This document shows positions 8,517 through 49,612 of a stretch of DNA of 64,000 bases, in pieces; the first letter of the stretch is position 1; each line of letters starts with the position of its first letter. The translations under genes were made by a program, and so were the position numbers. The stretch covers positions 313,344 to 377,343 of the forward strand of contig JAENYE010000002.1 in the NCBI GenBank assembly GCA_016841955.1, read 5' to 3'. The DNA is from Methanobacteriota archaeon (GTDB taxonomy: Archaea > Halobacteriota > Methanomicrobia > Methanomicrobiales > Methanoculleaceae). The notes beneath the pieces are model-generated. The model was not told the origin of the DNA and made no database searches. It saw only the letters and a list, made by a program, of their open reading frames with translations.

Positions 8517-8600
8517 GTCTCACGCGAAGAACGCAAAGCCGCGAAGGAGAGTAACTCACAACCAAACTGGTCTTCGCGTTCTTCGCGGCTTCGCGTGAGC
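8517..8600. repeat. Dispersed palindromic element, copy A
   Basis: Left arm CTCACGCGAAGAACGC... (8519-8550) and right arm TCTTCGCGTTCTTCGCGG... (8571-8599) are imperfect inverted repeats of about 28 bases around a 20-25 base core. The same arms recur at 8622-8790, 16073-16163, 22362-22439, 22884-22914 and 49219-49612. It lies just after nreA. Confidence 0.85.
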
Positions 8601-8621
8601 TAACAGGTGCAGATAACAATA

Positions 8622-8790
8622 CAGTCTCGCGCGAAGAGCGCGAAGCCGCGAAGGAGAGTTTTACGCCCATCTACCGAATTTCGCGTTCTTCGCACCTAAC
8701 GGTGCTCGAGCTCCGGCCCTTCGGCCCATCGCACTTCGCGGGTCGCACCTTCGGGGCTCAAGCTCGCTTCGCTCGCACTTCGCGTGAAAT
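8622..8790. repeat. Dispersed palindromic element, copy B (right arm interrupted)
   Basis: Left arm CTCGCGCGAAGAGCGCGAAG at 8625-8655. The right arm begins at 8680 (TTCGCGTTCTTCGC), is broken by about 85 bases of GC-rich palindromic sequence (8693-8776), and resumes as ACTTCGCGTGAAA at 8777-8789. Copy E at 49219-49329 is broken at the same point by a related insert. The spacer between copies A and B (8591-8640) aligns without gaps to 49321-49370. Confidence 0.8.
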
Positions 8791-8821
8791 TACATCGTTT
8801 TCCCTGCTGACAAGAGGTATC

Positions 8822-16035: not shown

Positions 16036-16072
16036 GGGGCTCCAAGGGCGCAGGCGTACCTTCGCGGCTCCC

Positions 16073-16163
16073 ACCCTTCGCGTTCTTCGCGGCTTCGCGT
16101 GAGACCTGCTGCTGTCCCTGTACTGTTGCTTCACGCGAAGCCGCGAAAAGACGCGAAGGAGAG
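16073..16163. repeat. Dispersed palindromic element, copy C (reversed arm order)
   Basis: TTCGCGTTCTTCGCGGCTTC... at 16077-16102 pairs with TCACGCGAAGCCGCGAAAAG... at 16131-16158, near-perfect 26-base arms around a loop of about 28 bases. A decayed third arm (CTTCTCGTCTTCGAGTGAG) follows at 16184-16202. It fills most of the gap between the glycosyltransferase and the OB-HD gene. Confidence 0.85.
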
Positions 16164-16287
16164 TTCACAAATTGCCGCAAGGACTTCTCGTCTTCGAGTG
16201 AGACCAGACCAGCTTTCCACGCCGGAACAAACCGCCGAGCTTTAAGGCCTTCCAGGCGAACAGATTTTTGCAGGAGCGCGAGTCACA

Positions 16288-20066: not shown

Positions 20067-20257
20067 GATATTCTCCTTGCCGTGCGGGGTTAAATACCCG
20101 CACTCCCGGACAACGGTTCCCGGTGTAACCGCTCCCGGAAACAGCCCGGATCCCCGTCATTCCATGCGATGAATTTTATACACAAGATTATTATACTCAC
20201 AGCCAATTATAAACGCCGTATCCTGAGGTGATTGTGGTGCAGAGAAGGGATATTACA

Positions 20258-21187
20258 ATGGAGGAATCGCAGGAGGAGAAGCGGTATGATGTTAGCCGTA
20301 TGGCGTCGATGCGGGATATCGACGGCCTGACCGAAGCGATGCAGAGCAGCGATCCCGCAGTCCGCCGGAGCGCCGCCCAGGCCCTTGGCGCGCTCGGCGA
20401 ATGGAGATCGGTAGACCCGCTCATCCGGGCGCTCGGCGACCCGGTGCAGGACGTCCGGGAGGGGGCGGCGAACGCGCTTATCATGGTCGGGACACCGGCG
20501 GTCGAGCCGTTGATCGACCTCCTCGAGCGTCCCGGCGTTGCGGCAGGGTACGAAGTACCGAGAGAAGCGCTCGGGGAGGGGATCACCCAGTTCGACCTTC
20601 TCGGGGGGCCCGAGGAAATACCGCTCACGAAGAGGAGGCTCCGGCACCGGGCGGGCATTGCACAGCACGACGCGCTCGGCGGACCGGAGGATATAAGGGG
20701 GGCAGGAGCCGGAAGAACCCGCGATGAGGAAGAAGGCCTCGCCCAGCACGACGCGTACGGAGGGCCGGAGGCTATCAGGAGAGCGGGAGGCAGAAGGGCC
20801 GTCGAGGAGGAGGAGGAGATCACCCAGCACGACCTTCTCGGCGGCCCGGAGGATGTCGGGACGAAAAAAGCCCTCCGGCACCGTGAACTTGCACAGCACG
20901 ACCTCTTCGGCGGTCCGGAGGGCGCGAGGGAGCACGAGGCGCTCTTCCCCGGAGCGAAGAGAGCGGTTGTCGTGACGGGGGGTGTTGTCCCCGGCATGGG
21001 ACCGGGACTGCGCCGTACCTATGCCGCCGTCATCCTCGGCGAGATCGCCGACCCGCTGGCGGAGGATGCCCTCCGCCGCTCGCTCTCCGACAGCGATCCC
21101 GCCGTCCGGAGGGCGGCCGAGGACGGGATGGCACGGTTCCGGGAGAGGCGGGGCGAGGCCGCGCCCGTCCCGCCTACATCCCGCTGA
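20258..21187 (+). CDS. HEAT-repeat protein with a five-copy QHDxxGGPE motif array
   Basis: 309 residues from ATG 20258 (GAAGGGA upstream; GTG starts at 20228-20237 are possible). Residues about 15-100 are HEAT/PBS-lyase repeats (AVRRSAAQALGALGEWRSVD, PLIRALGDPVQDVREGAAN). Residues about 110-221 are an arginine/glutamate-rich insert with five copies of [TA]Q[HF]Dxx[GG]GPE. A last HEAT pair (RTYAAVILGEIADPLAEDAL) ends the protein. The downstream paralogue is alike in the HEAT parts but lacks the insert. HEAT repeats usually mediate protein binding. Function unknown. A TATA-like AATTATAAAC lies near 20206-20215. Confidence 0.75.
   Translation: MEESQEEKRYDVSRMASMRDIDGLTEAMQSSDPAVRRSAAQALGALGEWRSVDPLIRALGDPVQDVREGAANALIMVGTPAVEPLIDLLERPGVAAGYEVPREALGEGITQFDLLGGPEEIPLTKRRLRHRAGIAQHDALGGPEDIRGAGAGRTRDEEEGLAQHDAYGGPEAIRRAGGRRAVEEEEEITQHDLLGGPEDVGTKKALRHRELAQHDLFGGPEGAREHEALFPGAKRAVVVTGGVVPGMGPGLRRTYAAVILGEIADPLAEDALRRSLSDSDPAVRRAAEDGMARFRERRGEAAPVPPTSR
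20585..20920 (+). repeat. Degenerate protein-level repeat array (five QHDxxGGPE units)
   Basis: Units read TQFDLLGGPE, AQHDALGGPE, AQHDAYGGPE, TQHDLLGGPE and AQHDLFGGPE, separated by charged spacers of about 13-20 residues. Codons differ between copies (for example GGCGGA, GGAGGG, GGCGGC, GGCGGT, GGGGGG for the Gly pair), so the peptide rather than the DNA appears to be conserved. Confidence 0.85.
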
Positions 21188-21294
21188 TGCCGGGACAGAC
21201 CACCCAATTTTTCCGGTTCCACGACCGGGTTGTTCCTGCCGGACAAGGTTATTATACCGGGTAGCGCTATACGCCGGATCCGGAGGCGAAAAGA

Positions 21295-22242
21295 TTGCAG
21301 CAAGAGAGCGGTTCTCCCGAGGAGCAGCAGGGCGGAAAAAGGTTCAACATCGATCTTTTACGGGCCGAGGAAGACGTCGACGGCCTGATCGAGGCACTGG
21401 ATAGCGCTGACGGCCTGACACGCCAGCGGGCCGCCCTTGCGCTCGGGGACTTCGGCGAGGCGAGGGCGACAGAGCCGCTCATCCGGGCGCTCGGCGACCC
21501 GCTGACGGCGGTGCGGGAAGCGGCGGCGGACTCGCTCACCCTGCTCGGGGGTGCGGCGGTCGGGCCGCTGGTCGAACTCGTCGAGCGTCCTGAGGCATCG
21601 GAGCATTACGAAGAGTCGGCGGCTGCCCGGGGCACGGCTACCGTAACCGGACCCGGCGGCCGGACCTGGGAGGTCGAGACCAGGAGAGACCTCCGGCGGG
21701 CCTATGCGGCCGCCATCCTCGGCGAGATCGCCGACCCTTCCGCGGTGGAACCCCTCGTCCGGGCGCTGCACGACGAGAACGACGACCTCCGGTGCCAGGC
21801 ATCGGGAGCGCTTGCGAAGTTCGGCCGGAGGGCGGTGGAACCGCTTGCAGAGTTGCTCGCCGACCCGGACCCGGACGTCAGGATCGTCGCGGCCGGTGTC
21901 CTCGGGGATACCGGGGAGGCGTCCGCGGCGGAGCCGCTCATCGGTGCGCTCCACGACAAGAACGACGACGTCCGGGGTGCGGCGGCGGGCGCCCTCATCC
22001 GGATGGGCGACACCGTGGTCGACCGGCTCATCGACGCGACGAAAGAGAGCGACCGGAATGTCCGGCTCTACGCGGCGGGGGCGCTCAAGTACATCGGCGA
22101 CCCGCGGGCGATCGACGCGCTCCGGGCCCTCGCCCTTGACGAGGATGCGGACGTGCGGAGCGTTGCCGAGGACGCGATCGATAAGATCCAGATGATCCGG
22201 GGCGAGATGCCGGCGGAGCCGTCCCCGCCGACGTCACGGTGA
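21295..22242 (+). CDS. HEAT-repeat (PBS lyase-like) protein, paralogue of the preceding gene
   Basis: 315 residues from a TTG with GGAGG eight bases upstream. The N-terminus GGKRFNIDLLRAEEDVDGLI parallels EEKRYDVSRMASMRDIDGLT of the preceding gene. About six HEAT-type units follow (ATEPLIRALGDPLTAVREAA, AVEPLVRALHDENDDLRCQA, AAEPLIGALHDKNDDVRGAA and others). It lacks the GGPE array, carrying instead a short loop with TATVTGPGGRTWEVE. It probably arose by tandem duplication. A general binding scaffold is likely; no partner can be named. Confidence 0.8.
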   Translation: MQQESGSPEEQQGGKRFNIDLLRAEEDVDGLIEALDSADGLTRQRAALALGDFGEARATEPLIRALGDPLTAVREAAADSLTLLGGAAVGPLVELVERPEASEHYEESAAARGTATVTGPGGRTWEVETRRDLRRAYAAAILGEIADPSAVEPLVRALHDENDDLRCQASGALAKFGRRAVEPLAELLADPDPDVRIVAAGVLGDTGEASAAEPLIGALHDKNDDVRGAAAGALIRMGDTVVDRLIDATKESDRNVRLYAAGALKYIGDPRAIDALRALALDEDADVRSVAEDAIDKIQMIRGEMPAEPSPPTSR

Positions 22243-22361
22243 CACTTTCTAGACGGTAACAACCGGGGGAGAGGCCGGGTTCACTGATCAGGGCGTGTAC
22301 CACAGTGGTCCCGGCCTTTCACAAGCGTAACTTCGGGTGTGCCCACCATCTACATACTGTT

Positions 22362-22492
22362 AACTCACGCGAAGCCGCGAAGCCGCGAAGTCGGTGTGGA
22401 TGTCGGCAGTCTCTTTCGCGTCCTTCACGGCTTCACACATGTCCATATCGTCCATGCACCGTTGATTGACGCGGAGGCGGGAAGACGCGAAG
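22362..22492. repeat. Dispersed palindromic element, copy D left part
   Basis: CTCACGCGAAGCCGCGAAGC... at 22364-22391, an inverted partner TTTCGCGTCCTTCACGGCTTC... at 22414-22436, and a decayed further arm at 22468-22492 (GACGCGGAGGCGGGAAGACG). It lies on one side of the GxxExxY gene, with the opposite arm on the other side at 22884-22914. Confidence 0.8.
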
Positions 22493-22562
22493 TCCGTATG
22501 GTTATTGGCAATCCGTTTCACACCTTCTTTGAACGTACCCGCACCAAAATTGATCAGCAGAC

Positions 22563-22871
22563 CTAGGGTAACTGCATCAACCGCAGATAGGTCAGCACCT
22601 GCTTGGCATGAACCGGGGCAATTTTTTCGACGGATTTCAACTCAACTACCAGAAAACCTTCCACCAGTAAATCTACCCGGAGACCATCGTCGAAATGTAT
22701 CCCATCGTAATCGAACATCACGGACTTCTGCCGCTCCACCTGTAATCCTCGTTTTTCTAGTATCTGTGCAAGGACTGTCTCATAGACCGATTCGAGCAGC
22801 CCCGGCCCCAGATCCCGGTGCAAGTGGTAAGCCGCATCAACGACAACCGACGAGACCTCCTCCACGTTCAT
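22563..22871 (-). CDS. GxxExxY family protein (PD-(D/E)XK nuclease-like)
   Basis: 102 residues from ATG 22871; the frame runs upstream through the flanking repeat (giving SREAAKNAK), which is not likely coding. The family motif is GPGLLESVYE (GxxExxY) near residue 23. The C-terminal half RVDLLVEGFLVVELKSVEK has the D...(E)xK pattern of the PD-(D/E)XK nuclease fold, followed by a helix with QVLTYLRLM. No activity is established for the family. The gene is bracketed by inverted copies of the dispersed CGCGAAG repeat, suggesting they form one unit. Confidence 0.85.
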   Translation of the reverse strand: MNVEEVSSVVVDAAYHLHRDLGPGLLESVYETVLAQILEKRGLQVERQKSVMFDYDGIHFDDGLRVDLLVEGFLVVELKSVEKIAPVHAKQVLTYLRLMQLP

Positions 22872-22883
22872 AAACACCCTCCT

Positions 22884-22914
22884 CCCCTTCGCGTTCTTCG
22901 CGGCTTCGCGTGAG
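22884..22914. repeat. Dispersed palindromic element, copy D right arm
   Basis: CCTTCGCGTTCTTCGCGGCT... ending CGCGTGAGA, inverted relative to the arm at 22364-22391. Together the two enclose about 550 bases containing the GxxExxY gene. The remaining bases to 23111 hold nothing recognisable. Confidence 0.85.
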
Positions 22915-23111
22915 ACAGGGAACAAAACCAAGTACAAATTTCGGAGTTCCCAGCCTTACAGATATCCTGTTGACCCTCCGGAACATGAAGGTGCGCCGTG
23001 CAGGGTGAAACTGGTCGACCAGACGTACCATCCGGTGTTTCGTCAGTCGATACGTACATCTAGCGGTGTTCAAGCTCCGTTCCTGCAGAGCTGAATAAAA
23101 AGAGTATCTTC

Positions 23112-24362
23112 TTAACCCCTTCTCCGCACCCGCACCGACTCCGCGTGGGCGTGGAGCCCTTCCGCATCGGCGATCGTCTCCACCACGTCGCCGATTGCCT
23201 CGAGGCCCTCCCGCGTGATCACCTGGACCGTCGAGCGCCGGCAGAAGTGGTTCACGTCGAGCCCGGAGTAAAACCTGGCATAGCCTGCCGTCGGGAGGAC
23301 ATGGTTCGTCCCCGACGCGTAGTCACCGCAGGCCACCGCCGCGTAGGGGCCGACGAAGATCGACCCGGCGCTCCGGATCCGGTTGAGGACGGCGAGCGGG
23401 TCGGCCACCTGCACCGAGAGGTGCTCGGGGGCGATCCCGTCGACCGTCTCCACCGCCTCGTCGAGGTCGCCGGCCACGATGTAGCCCGAGTGGTCGAGCG
23501 CCTTCTCGACGATCTCGCGGCGCCTGGCGCCCGCCGCCATCCGCTTCACCGCATCGCCGACCGCATCGGCGAGGGCCGCGTCGGTGGTGACCAGGACGCA
23601 GGCGGCATTCGGGTCGTGCTCGGCCTGGGCGAGGATGTCGGCCGCGATGAAGGCCGGGTTCGCCGTGCTGTCCGCGATGATCGCGATCTCGCTCGGGCCC
23701 GCCGGGAAGTCGATCTCGGCCTCGTCGCGGAGGAGCATCTTCGCTGCGGTGACGTAGACGTTGCCCGGGCCGACGATCTTCTCCACCCGGGGGATCGTCT
23801 CCGTCCCGATCGCCATGGCCGCAATCGCCTGGGCGCCGCCGACCCGGTAGACCTCGTCGACCCCGGCGATATCGAGCGCCACGAGCGTGATCGGGCTGAC
23901 CGGCGGCGGGGTGCAGCAGCAGATCTCCCGGACACCCGCGACTTTTGCCGGGATCGTGCACATCAGTGCCGTCGAGGGGTATGCCGCCCGCCCGCCGGGG
24001 ACGTAGGCCCCGACCCGGGACAGGGGAGTCGTCTTGACGCCGAGGGTGATCCCGGGCTCCATCTCCTGCAGCCAGAGGTCGCGCCCGCGTTGCAGCTCGT
24101 GAAACCGGCTGATCCGCGCCTCCGCCTCTACAAGGCTCTCGACCAGTTGTGCGTCCACCAGGTCGTAGGCCGCCTCCCGCTCCTCGTCGGAGACGGCGAT
24201 CTCGTCGAGATCGATGCCGTCGAACCTCTTCGTCAGGTCGAGCAGGGCATCGTCGCCTTGGGCCCGCACCCTCCCGATGATCTCGGAGACCGGTCCCTTC
24301 ACCCGGTCGATGTCCGACCGCCGCCCGGCGATCCAGGTCTCGATATCCAGCGCCTGCCACAT
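23112..24362 (-). CDS. hisD: Histidinol dehydrogenase
   Basis: 416 residues covering the whole enzyme, which oxidises L-histidinol to histidine in two NAD-dependent steps. Diagnostic blocks are GAYVPGGRAAYPSTALM, GGAQAIAAMAIGTETIPRVE, VGPGNVYVTAAK, FPAGPSEIAIIAD, AQAEHDPNA and GIAPEHLSVQ. Zinc ligands fit the Gln/His of AQAEHD, the Asp in CGDYASGTNHVLPT and the His of LHAHAESV. It is a single gene transcribed away from the Mo/W island, with no other his gene beside it; hisC is about 23 kb away. Confidence 0.95.
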   Translation of the reverse strand: MWQALDIETWIAGRRSDIDRVKGPVSEIIGRVRAQGDDALLDLTKRFDGIDLDEIAVSDEEREAAYDLVDAQLVESLVEAEARISRFHELQRGRDLWLQEMEPGITLGVKTTPLSRVGAYVPGGRAAYPSTALMCTIPAKVAGVREICCCTPPPVSPITLVALDIAGVDEVYRVGGAQAIAAMAIGTETIPRVEKIVGPGNVYVTAAKMLLRDEAEIDFPAGPSEIAIIADSTANPAFIAADILAQAEHDPNAACVLVTTDAALADAVGDAVKRMAAGARRREIVEKALDHSGYIVAGDLDEAVETVDGIAPEHLSVQVADPLAVLNRIRSAGSIFVGPYAAVACGDYASGTNHVLPTAGYARFYSGLDVNHFCRRSTVQVITREGLEAIGDVVETIADAEGLHAHAESVRVRRRG

Positions 24363-24492
24363 GAGGAGAAGAATCGGCGGGCCGAAGCGTTAAGGTTTCG
24401 ACCCCGCTTGCGACCGGCCCCCGGAACGGAGCCCATTAACATTCCGGCCAGGATAACTATATATTCGAGGATGCCACCCCTAACGCGCTGTT

Positions 24493-25467
24493 ATGAAGAT
24501 GAATACGACCCTTCTGACGGCAGGCATCATTGCGATCCTGCTCATTCTCGCCGCCTGCGCGGGATGCACGAGTCCGGCGCCGGGCGGAAACGAGACGCCG
24601 AACGCCACGGCGGCGACGACCGCTCCCGCCGGCGGGGCGATCGTCCTGCGGATCGCCACCACGACAAGCCTCGAGAACACCGGTCTGCTCGCGGAGCTCG
24701 AACGCGTCTACGAGAACGAGACCGGGGTTGACCTCCAGTTCATCGCCCAGGGCACAGGGCAGTCCATCGATTCCGCACGACGCGGCGATGTGGACATGGT
24801 GCTCGTCCACGCCCCGGCGCTTGAGCAGCAGTTCATCGACGACGGTTATGGCATCAACCCGCGGTGCATCGCTTACAACTACTTCATCATCGTCGGGCCC
24901 GCGTCCGACCCGGCGGGGATCGCGAACATGAGTCCGGTGGAAGCCTTCAGGACGATCTATGCCGCCGGCACGAACAACACCCCGGGTGTCGCCTTCGTCT
25001 CCCGGGGCGACAACTCCGGGACCCACAACCAGGAGAAAGTGCTCTGGGAGGAGGCGGGCTACAACTACACTACGGAGATCCTGAACGCCGGAGCCTGGTA
25101 CGTCGAGGCCGGCAAGGGCATGGGCGACACCCTGATTCTCGCGAACGAGAAAGGGGCGTACACGCTCTCCGATGAGGGAACTTATCTCTCGTTTGCGGAT
25201 CGGCTCAACCTGGTGCCGGTCATCGCCGAGGGAACAGAACTCCTGAACCGCTACAGCGCGATCGCGGTCAACCCCGCGAAGTACCCGAGCGTGAACGCGG
25301 AAGGGGCCACGGACTTCATCAACTGGCTCATCTCGGACGAGGCGAAGGAGATCATCGGAAACTTCGGGACCGAGGAGTTCGGCAAACCGCTCTTTATCCC
25401 GCTCTACGCCCCCGAGTGTACGGAACCACCGTTCAACTGCACCTGCGCGGAGCCGGTGCCCACGTAG
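24493..25467 (+). CDS. tupA: Tungstate ABC transporter substrate-binding lipoprotein, system 1
   Basis: 324 residues. Lipoprotein signal TLLTAGIIAILLILAACAGC, then a Thr/Ala linker. The mature part has the TupA oxyanion-binding signature RIATTTSLENTGLL, then GDVDMVLVHAP, YNYFIIVGP, SRGDNSGTHNQEK and EAGKGMGDTLILANEKGAYT. TupA proteins bind tungstate with very high affinity and selectivity over molybdate. It is followed by permease and ATPase genes. The C-terminal tail has three cysteines (ECTEPPFNCTC) not present in the second copy. A TATA-like CTATATATTC lies at 24452-24461. Confidence 0.88.
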   Translation: MKMNTTLLTAGIIAILLILAACAGCTSPAPGGNETPNATAATTAPAGGAIVLRIATTTSLENTGLLAELERVYENETGVDLQFIAQGTGQSIDSARRGDVDMVLVHAPALEQQFIDDGYGINPRCIAYNYFIIVGPASDPAGIANMSPVEAFRTIYAAGTNNTPGVAFVSRGDNSGTHNQEKVLWEEAGYNYTTEILNAGAWYVEAGKGMGDTLILANEKGAYTLSDEGTYLSFADRLNLVPVIAEGTELLNRYSAIAVNPAKYPSVNAEGATDFINWLISDEAKEIIGNFGTEEFGKPLFIPLYAPECTEPPFNCTCAEPVPT

Positions 25468-49218: not shown

Positions 49219-49329
49219 TCTTTCGTGTTCTTCGAGGCGCGAACGCCGTGAGCGAGAGCGCCATCAGGTGCGAGGAACGTCGTTCCTGCCGGTGCTCAAA
49301 GCTACGCTTTCGCTCGGACTTCGCGTGAG
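49219..49329. repeat. Dispersed palindromic element, copy E (interrupted right arm)
   Basis: TCTTTCGTGTTCTTCG at 49219-49234, an insert of about 83 GC-rich self-complementary bases, then ACTTCGCGTGAG at 49318-49329. The break position and the end of the insert (GGTGCTCAAAGCTACGCTTT...) parallel copy B at 8680-8789. Confidence 0.75.
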
Positions 49330-49353: not shown

Positions 49354-49612
49354 GTCTCACGCGAAGAACGCGAAGCCGCGAAGAACGATGGGCCGAAGGG
49401 TGCGACGTTCCAACGAACGACTGTCCGTAGGACAGGAGTTCGAGAAGGCCGAAGGTCTTTGAGGAACGGAGCAGGAGCACCGTAGGTGCGGGTCCGGAGT
49501 TCGAGCACCGCCAGATGCGGAGGGGAGTTGCAGATACCTGTACCAGTCTTCGCGTTCTTCGCGGCCTCGCGTGCGGCTGTGTCACTCTCCAAACTGGTAC
49601 CTCACGCGTGAG
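49354..49612. repeat. Dispersed palindromic element, copy F (long core)
   Basis: Left arm TCTCACGCGAAGAACGCGAA at 49355 onward to 49384, a core of about 160 bases with many short palindromes, and right arm CTTCGCGTTCTTCGCGGCC... at 49547-49572. A minimal end-to-end joint CTCACGCGTGAG follows at 49601-49612, next to CCAAACTGGT, which is also present in the core of copy A. Confidence 0.8.

Follow-up and report, generated by a model that had tools for sequence, protein, structure and literature searches.

The closest working analogy to the element described here is the REPIN-RAYT system (PMC3116915), in which two inverted repeats and a short core form a long hairpin with many copies per genome, a low-copy nuclease gene is flanked by such repeats, and gene-less copies are in surplus. 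These features recur in the GxxExxY element with an unrelated nuclease replacing the HUH enzyme: its predicted enzyme is a PD-(D/E)XK nuclease and not an HUH Y1 transposase, its arms are composed of tandem 7-nt units, and its gene-bearing copies have been duplicated within genomes, in contrast to the RAYTs, for which a single copy is described. With insertion sequences and their MITEs, the element has in common terminal inverted repeats, one gene, a size of 0.55-0.8 kb, internally deleted non-autonomous copies and empty sites in relatives; unlike them, it shows no target-site duplication, and no DDE, HUH, serine or tyrosine transposase was found in it. The intervening sequences of 23S rRNA with their S23 four-helix-bundle protein (PMC4990558) are likewise small selfish elements with one small gene, but their protein and arm sequence are unrelated and they are located in rRNA. 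Neither the type of enzyme nor the build of the arms fits a known class of mobile element. GxxExxY genes, annotated in many genomes without a function, are here placed in a small, widespread and seemingly unrecognised mobile element. The name GxxExxY does occur in the open-access literature, in which we found no description of the arms or of the element; subscription journals were mostly outside this search, and earlier knowledge is possible.

In the window (the whole 64-kb stretch of archaeal DNA analysed), positions 22364-22914 hold a frameshifted relic of a transposon-like element, a decayed copy with its gene (Table 1). Positions 22364-22382 and 22896-22914 form a 19/19 inverted match with 513 nt between them; this core is the perfect part only, while the arm spans given in Table 1 count weaker units as well. 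In agreement with the preliminary description, the sole gene within the arms (≈550 bp) is GxxExxY, and the upstream SREAAKNAK peptide recorded there is genuine, being the arm translated in frame. The gene matches TIGR04256 and PF13366 and lies on the minus strand. The element likewise explains the odd arm-encoded peptides at the ends of GxxExxY proteins. The same description missed the frameshift: a stop at 22563 closes the N-terminal frame, and what remains of the domain (GLLINFGAGTFKEGVKRI...) lies in another frame that continues into the second arm. One more GxxExxY copy, intact, is found elsewhere in the source genome (G000, 2.43 Mb). Judged by eye from the translations, the surroundings (20228-25467) are ordinary, with HEAT-repeat genes upstream of the element, hisD at 23112-24362 and a substrate-binding protein gene at 24493-25467.

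Table 1. Gene, arms and short copies of the GxxExxY element in the window.
Feature	Position	Strand	Remarks
Inverted arm, 3' side of gene	22364..22390	+	Three tandem CGCGAAG units: CTCACGCGAAGCCGCGAAGCCGCGAAG
Inverted arm, 5' side of gene	22887..22914	-	CTTCGCGTTCTTCGCGGCTTCGCGTGAG; pairs without mismatch with the other arm over 19 nt
GxxExxY gene, N-terminal frame	22563..22871	-	MNVEEVSS...LRLMQLP (stop); holds G..E..Y, D, ExK, QxxxY; ends at frameshift stop
GxxExxY domain, C-terminal remainder in other frame	22365..22571	-	Runs into 3' arm (...FAASRLRVS, stop)
Upstream extension of the open frame through 5' arm	22872..22937	-	Gives SREAAKNAK
Short arm-core-arm copy, 81 bp	8519..8599		Long hairpin, z -6.3; empty orthologous site for cluster 8518-8800
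Second short copy, adjoining the first	8626..8800		Arm-core-arm copy at about 8626-8780; additional palindromic stretch inside
Short-copy cluster	16056..16202		Empty site in sister species G002
Arm-core-arm copy	49356..49563		168-nt core

The arm motif occurs 201 times in the source genome, compared with twice for a reversed control pattern. Its inverted pairs with a short spacer, hairpin-forming and dispersed in many copies, are of the REPIN type, and the other window copies first seen in the preliminary description do have the arm-core-arm plan. Folding predictions give long hairpins for the short copies (z about -6 to -7); a nuclease that recognises structure would require such folds, as in REPIN-RAYT (PMC3116915). 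In the relatives G017 and G002, the orthologous sites are without the two window clusters (8518-8800 and 16055-16202). No recognisable piece of the GxxExxY gene is present in the window short copies, and no stretch of the window reached a gathering score in Rfam. Some short copies contain or adjoin members of another dispersed palindromic family (GGTGCTCGAGCTCCG..., GAAGAACTTCGTTCTTC...), at about 8690-8800 and 49280-49320 of the window, and similar stretches occur downstream of hisD in three further loci (L020, L021, and L029).

The protein itself is clearly assigned to its family, with 108.5 bits against TIGR04256 (cut-off 35; E 2.4e-31) and 106.2 bits against PF13366, PDDEXK_3 (cut-off 22; E 1.7e-30). 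In an alignment of 14 members, G..E..Y, D, ExK and QxxxY are invariant, so that the D...ExK pattern of PD-(D/E)XK nucleases, read earlier from one sequence, holds throughout; the set D, ExK and QxxxY is common to Cas4/RecB-type nucleases. The AlphaFold model is confident (pLDDT 96.4), and among known structures it comes closest to SSO0001, a Cas4 protein (4ic1; Z 9.2, rmsd 3.4 over 96 residues), with the next entries near 7; Foldseek E-values were weak. A search of solved structures by sequence gave nothing useful, and the Cas4 profile reached 19.1 bits for the lead sequence over residues 65-96 only, below its cut-off of 22.7. The GxxExxY protein is thus, as modelled, a minimal (≈120-residue) PD-(D/E)XK nuclease with a QxxxY motif that stands nearest to Cas4, from which it differs in length (about 200 residues in Cas4) and by falling short of the Cas4 cut-off. 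A role in defence was considered and rejected, PADLOC having given only weak Cas4-type matches.

We collected 80 loci named as GxxExxY, each with flanks of up to 10 kb per side, representing at least 16 phyla by record titles; being the best matches to the query, they favour the canonical subfamily. For the 73 with enough flank, the 250 bp before the gene and the 250 bp after it were compared, and their best inverted match was taken as the score. Against a sliding null from their own contigs, 32 of the 73 exceed the 99th percentile (0.7 expected) and 49 the 95th. The preliminary description had set beforehand the comparison of arm frequency with that at other genes, and the outcome is clear: a score of at least 25 is found at 47% of GxxExxY loci and at 1% of 680 other genes on the same contigs (Fisher p about 2e-20 in the isolated-gene subset), and correctly oriented unit arms stand on both sides of 55/73 GxxExxY genes, 4/680 neighbouring genes and 0/26 four-helix-bundle genes. 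The common form of the arm is a tandem of CRCNRAG units, 0-3 nt apart and in opposite orientation on the two sides (e.g., TTCACCACGGAGACACGGAGGCACGGAG). Arms in the wrong orientation were found at 11 of 73 loci, and 18 of 73 have no two-sided unit arms. Archaeal loci follow an equal plan with lineage-specific units, the strict motif being two-sided in just 5 of 28.

Within Methanoculleus, the gene is present in 6 of 35 genus members at three locations, often as one copy per genome, and always between arms of one kind, with single arms eroded in places. Different single-base frameshifts interrupt three of the seven genus copies, while the intact ones are under purifying selection (dN/dS = 0.06-0.13). 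Copies at one site are inherited; between the copies at loci A and B and that at locus C, homology ends at the arms. The loci A and B (L001 and L002) have in common about 95 bp beyond the 5' arm (TTTCACCC..CGGCGC..CTT.ATG) that is not found at locus C. Gene-bearing members contain 20-733 arm motifs (median 255) and gene-less members a median of 12 (p 0.0005, with kinship ignored). The arms evidently persist without the gene, since several of the 29 gene-less members hold more than 100 arm motifs (209 in G008). The hisD and B-gene neighbourhoods, compared in 30 genomes each, yielded no empty site that could be read cleanly for any Methanoculleus copy with the gene; gene-free neighbourhoods were found, with flanks too rearranged for the junction to be read, and G028 retains only a degenerate arm.

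Duplication is most apparent in G052, a genome in one contig. Of its gene-bearing copies, L179 and L180 share 98.75% identity over 641 bp, and L181 and L182 share 96% over 752 bp; in both pairs the similarity extends no further than the arms or a little beyond them, into flanks that are unrelated. Beside the right arm of L181, a stretch of ≈50-60 nt just outside the arm recurs as about 30 more partial copies in the genome, from which it follows that some elements extend beyond their arms. In the archaeal genus g75, several genomes contain many near-full-length copies of a derivative of ≈282 bp, which reads ELTEEFIRIFYRVYNKLGYGFLEKVYENAMMIEL-NFGTKPEVKRK..., the start and the end of the GxxExxY protein. 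It retains both ends, with about 34 N-terminal and some C-terminal codons, and the D/ExK/QxxxY region is deleted, an arrangement that is MITE-like in the strict sense of an internally deleted gene-bearing element. The ends are sharp (CAAG...ATACAG) between unrelated flanks. Solo right ends of about 60 bp are also numerous in five of the g75 genomes (G204, G224, G239, G413, and G414), and one site has the full derivative in G224, only the right end in G204 and nothing in G414. The proposal of a full-length element with non-autonomous derivatives is supported, the true internal deletions being those of g75; in the window itself the gene is frameshifted and the short copies hold no pieces of it.

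When the joined flanks of 16 derivative copies were compared with the genus g75, several matched continuous DNA in sister species, that is, empty sites. The junction of L229 against L260, GAGCGGCAA^TAAAAAAATCG, is a clean insertion without target-site duplication; five others (L246, L235, L241, L236, and L232) resemble it to within a few bases, and in two (L251 and L237) the junction bases are rearranged or of unrelated sequence. The empty sites are plain A/T-rich sequence without arms, and were found for derivatives and not for gene-bearing copies. Together with the two short-copy clusters of the window, these sites provide the presence and absence between relatives that the preliminary description had looked to. 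No consistent target-site duplication was seen among the G052 copies and eight g75 insertion sites. Relatives of GxxExxY are carried by only 8 of 72,556 plasmids, so plasmids are not the main route of spread.

Comparison between genomes thus shows that gene and arms are duplicated and dispersed as a unit, that shorter copies lacking the catalytic core are dispersed too, and that insertion proceeds without target-site duplication; on this comparative evidence, the element (gene plus arms) is very probably mobile. Our best reading is a mobile system of the REPIN/MITE kind, with a Cas4-like nuclease as its sole protein. Inverted arms of tandem 7-nt units enclose the gene for this nuclease of ≈120 residues, which would recognise the arms, probably in their hairpin form on single-stranded or cruciform DNA, and would cut at the ends of the element to start the transfer of its own element. 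It may also mobilise the short copies in trans, and host repair or replication would complete the transfer. That the nuclease is the mover of its element we consider somewhat more probable than the contrary.

The arms could instead be moved in trans by another enzyme, an HUH Y1/RAYT protein or another transposase, with GxxExxY a passenger profiting from them. Y1_Tnp (PF01797) matches are indeed present in g75, the genus with the clearest empty sites (3-7 per genome, none in G149), and insertion without target-site duplication in an A/T-rich neighbourhood resembles the behaviour of IS200/IS605 and REP sequences; the four-helix-bundle genes described below, which lie between different inverted tandem arrays, suggest in addition that several gene types may use one layout. 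However, PF01797 has no match in the source genome or in G052, the best case of duplication, and a RAYT partner was rejected for both on this ground. Furthermore, GxxExxY recurs between CRCNRAG arms that the same test finds at very few neighbours, and a passenger role would hardly explain why a single type of gene recurs across at least 16 phyla. We therefore regard movement by another enzyme as unlikely.

In a homing scheme, the nuclease would cut at short arm palindromes already present, and double-strand-break repair would then copy in the version with the gene, making the protein a homing endonuclease and not a transposase. PD-(D/E)XK homing endonucleases exist, one of them (I-Bth0305I) is in the list of fold matches, and the gene does lie inside arms of the kind that bound the short copies, yet the derivatives entered arm-less A/T-rich sites and, without a catalytic core, still spread to unrelated ones, so that homing seems distinctly improbable. 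We give very little credence to a host gene of other function that happens to be located in intergenic DNA rich in repeats, with ordinary REP-like sequences as its arms. The strong purifying selection on intact copies and the frequent single copy in Methanoculleus are in its favour; it is opposed by the arm enrichment and orientation specificity, by duplications bounded at the arms, which like the enrichment would have to be assembly artefacts, and by patchy presence with frequent frameshifts.

If the nuclease drives the movement, the short list of enzymes that mobilise DNA would gain a new and very small type. The element also makes it possible to test where the dispersed CACNGAG/CGCGAAG palindromes come from.

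Finally, four-helix-bundle genes (TIGR02436) outside rRNA are likewise enclosed by inverted arrays of short tandem units, with sequences of their own (GGGTATAGGGT, AATTAGCAACTAGC, CAGGAGTCAGGAGT and more), and possibly form a second family of gene-in-arms elements. In a wider proposal, GxxExxY would represent a new type of mobilising Cas4-like PD-(D/E)XK nuclease, moving elements that have inverted arrays of 7-nt units at their ends and occur across many phyla of bacteria and archaea, and the four-helix-bundle proteins between other arrays would be a second, parallel class; we see the case for and against this proposal as evenly balanced. Among the four-helix-bundle loci (L289-L318), 18 of 27 have an inverted-repeat score above 20, which marks the null's 95th percentile. 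The layout was first seen at L125 (986-1346) and L154 (7937-8357).
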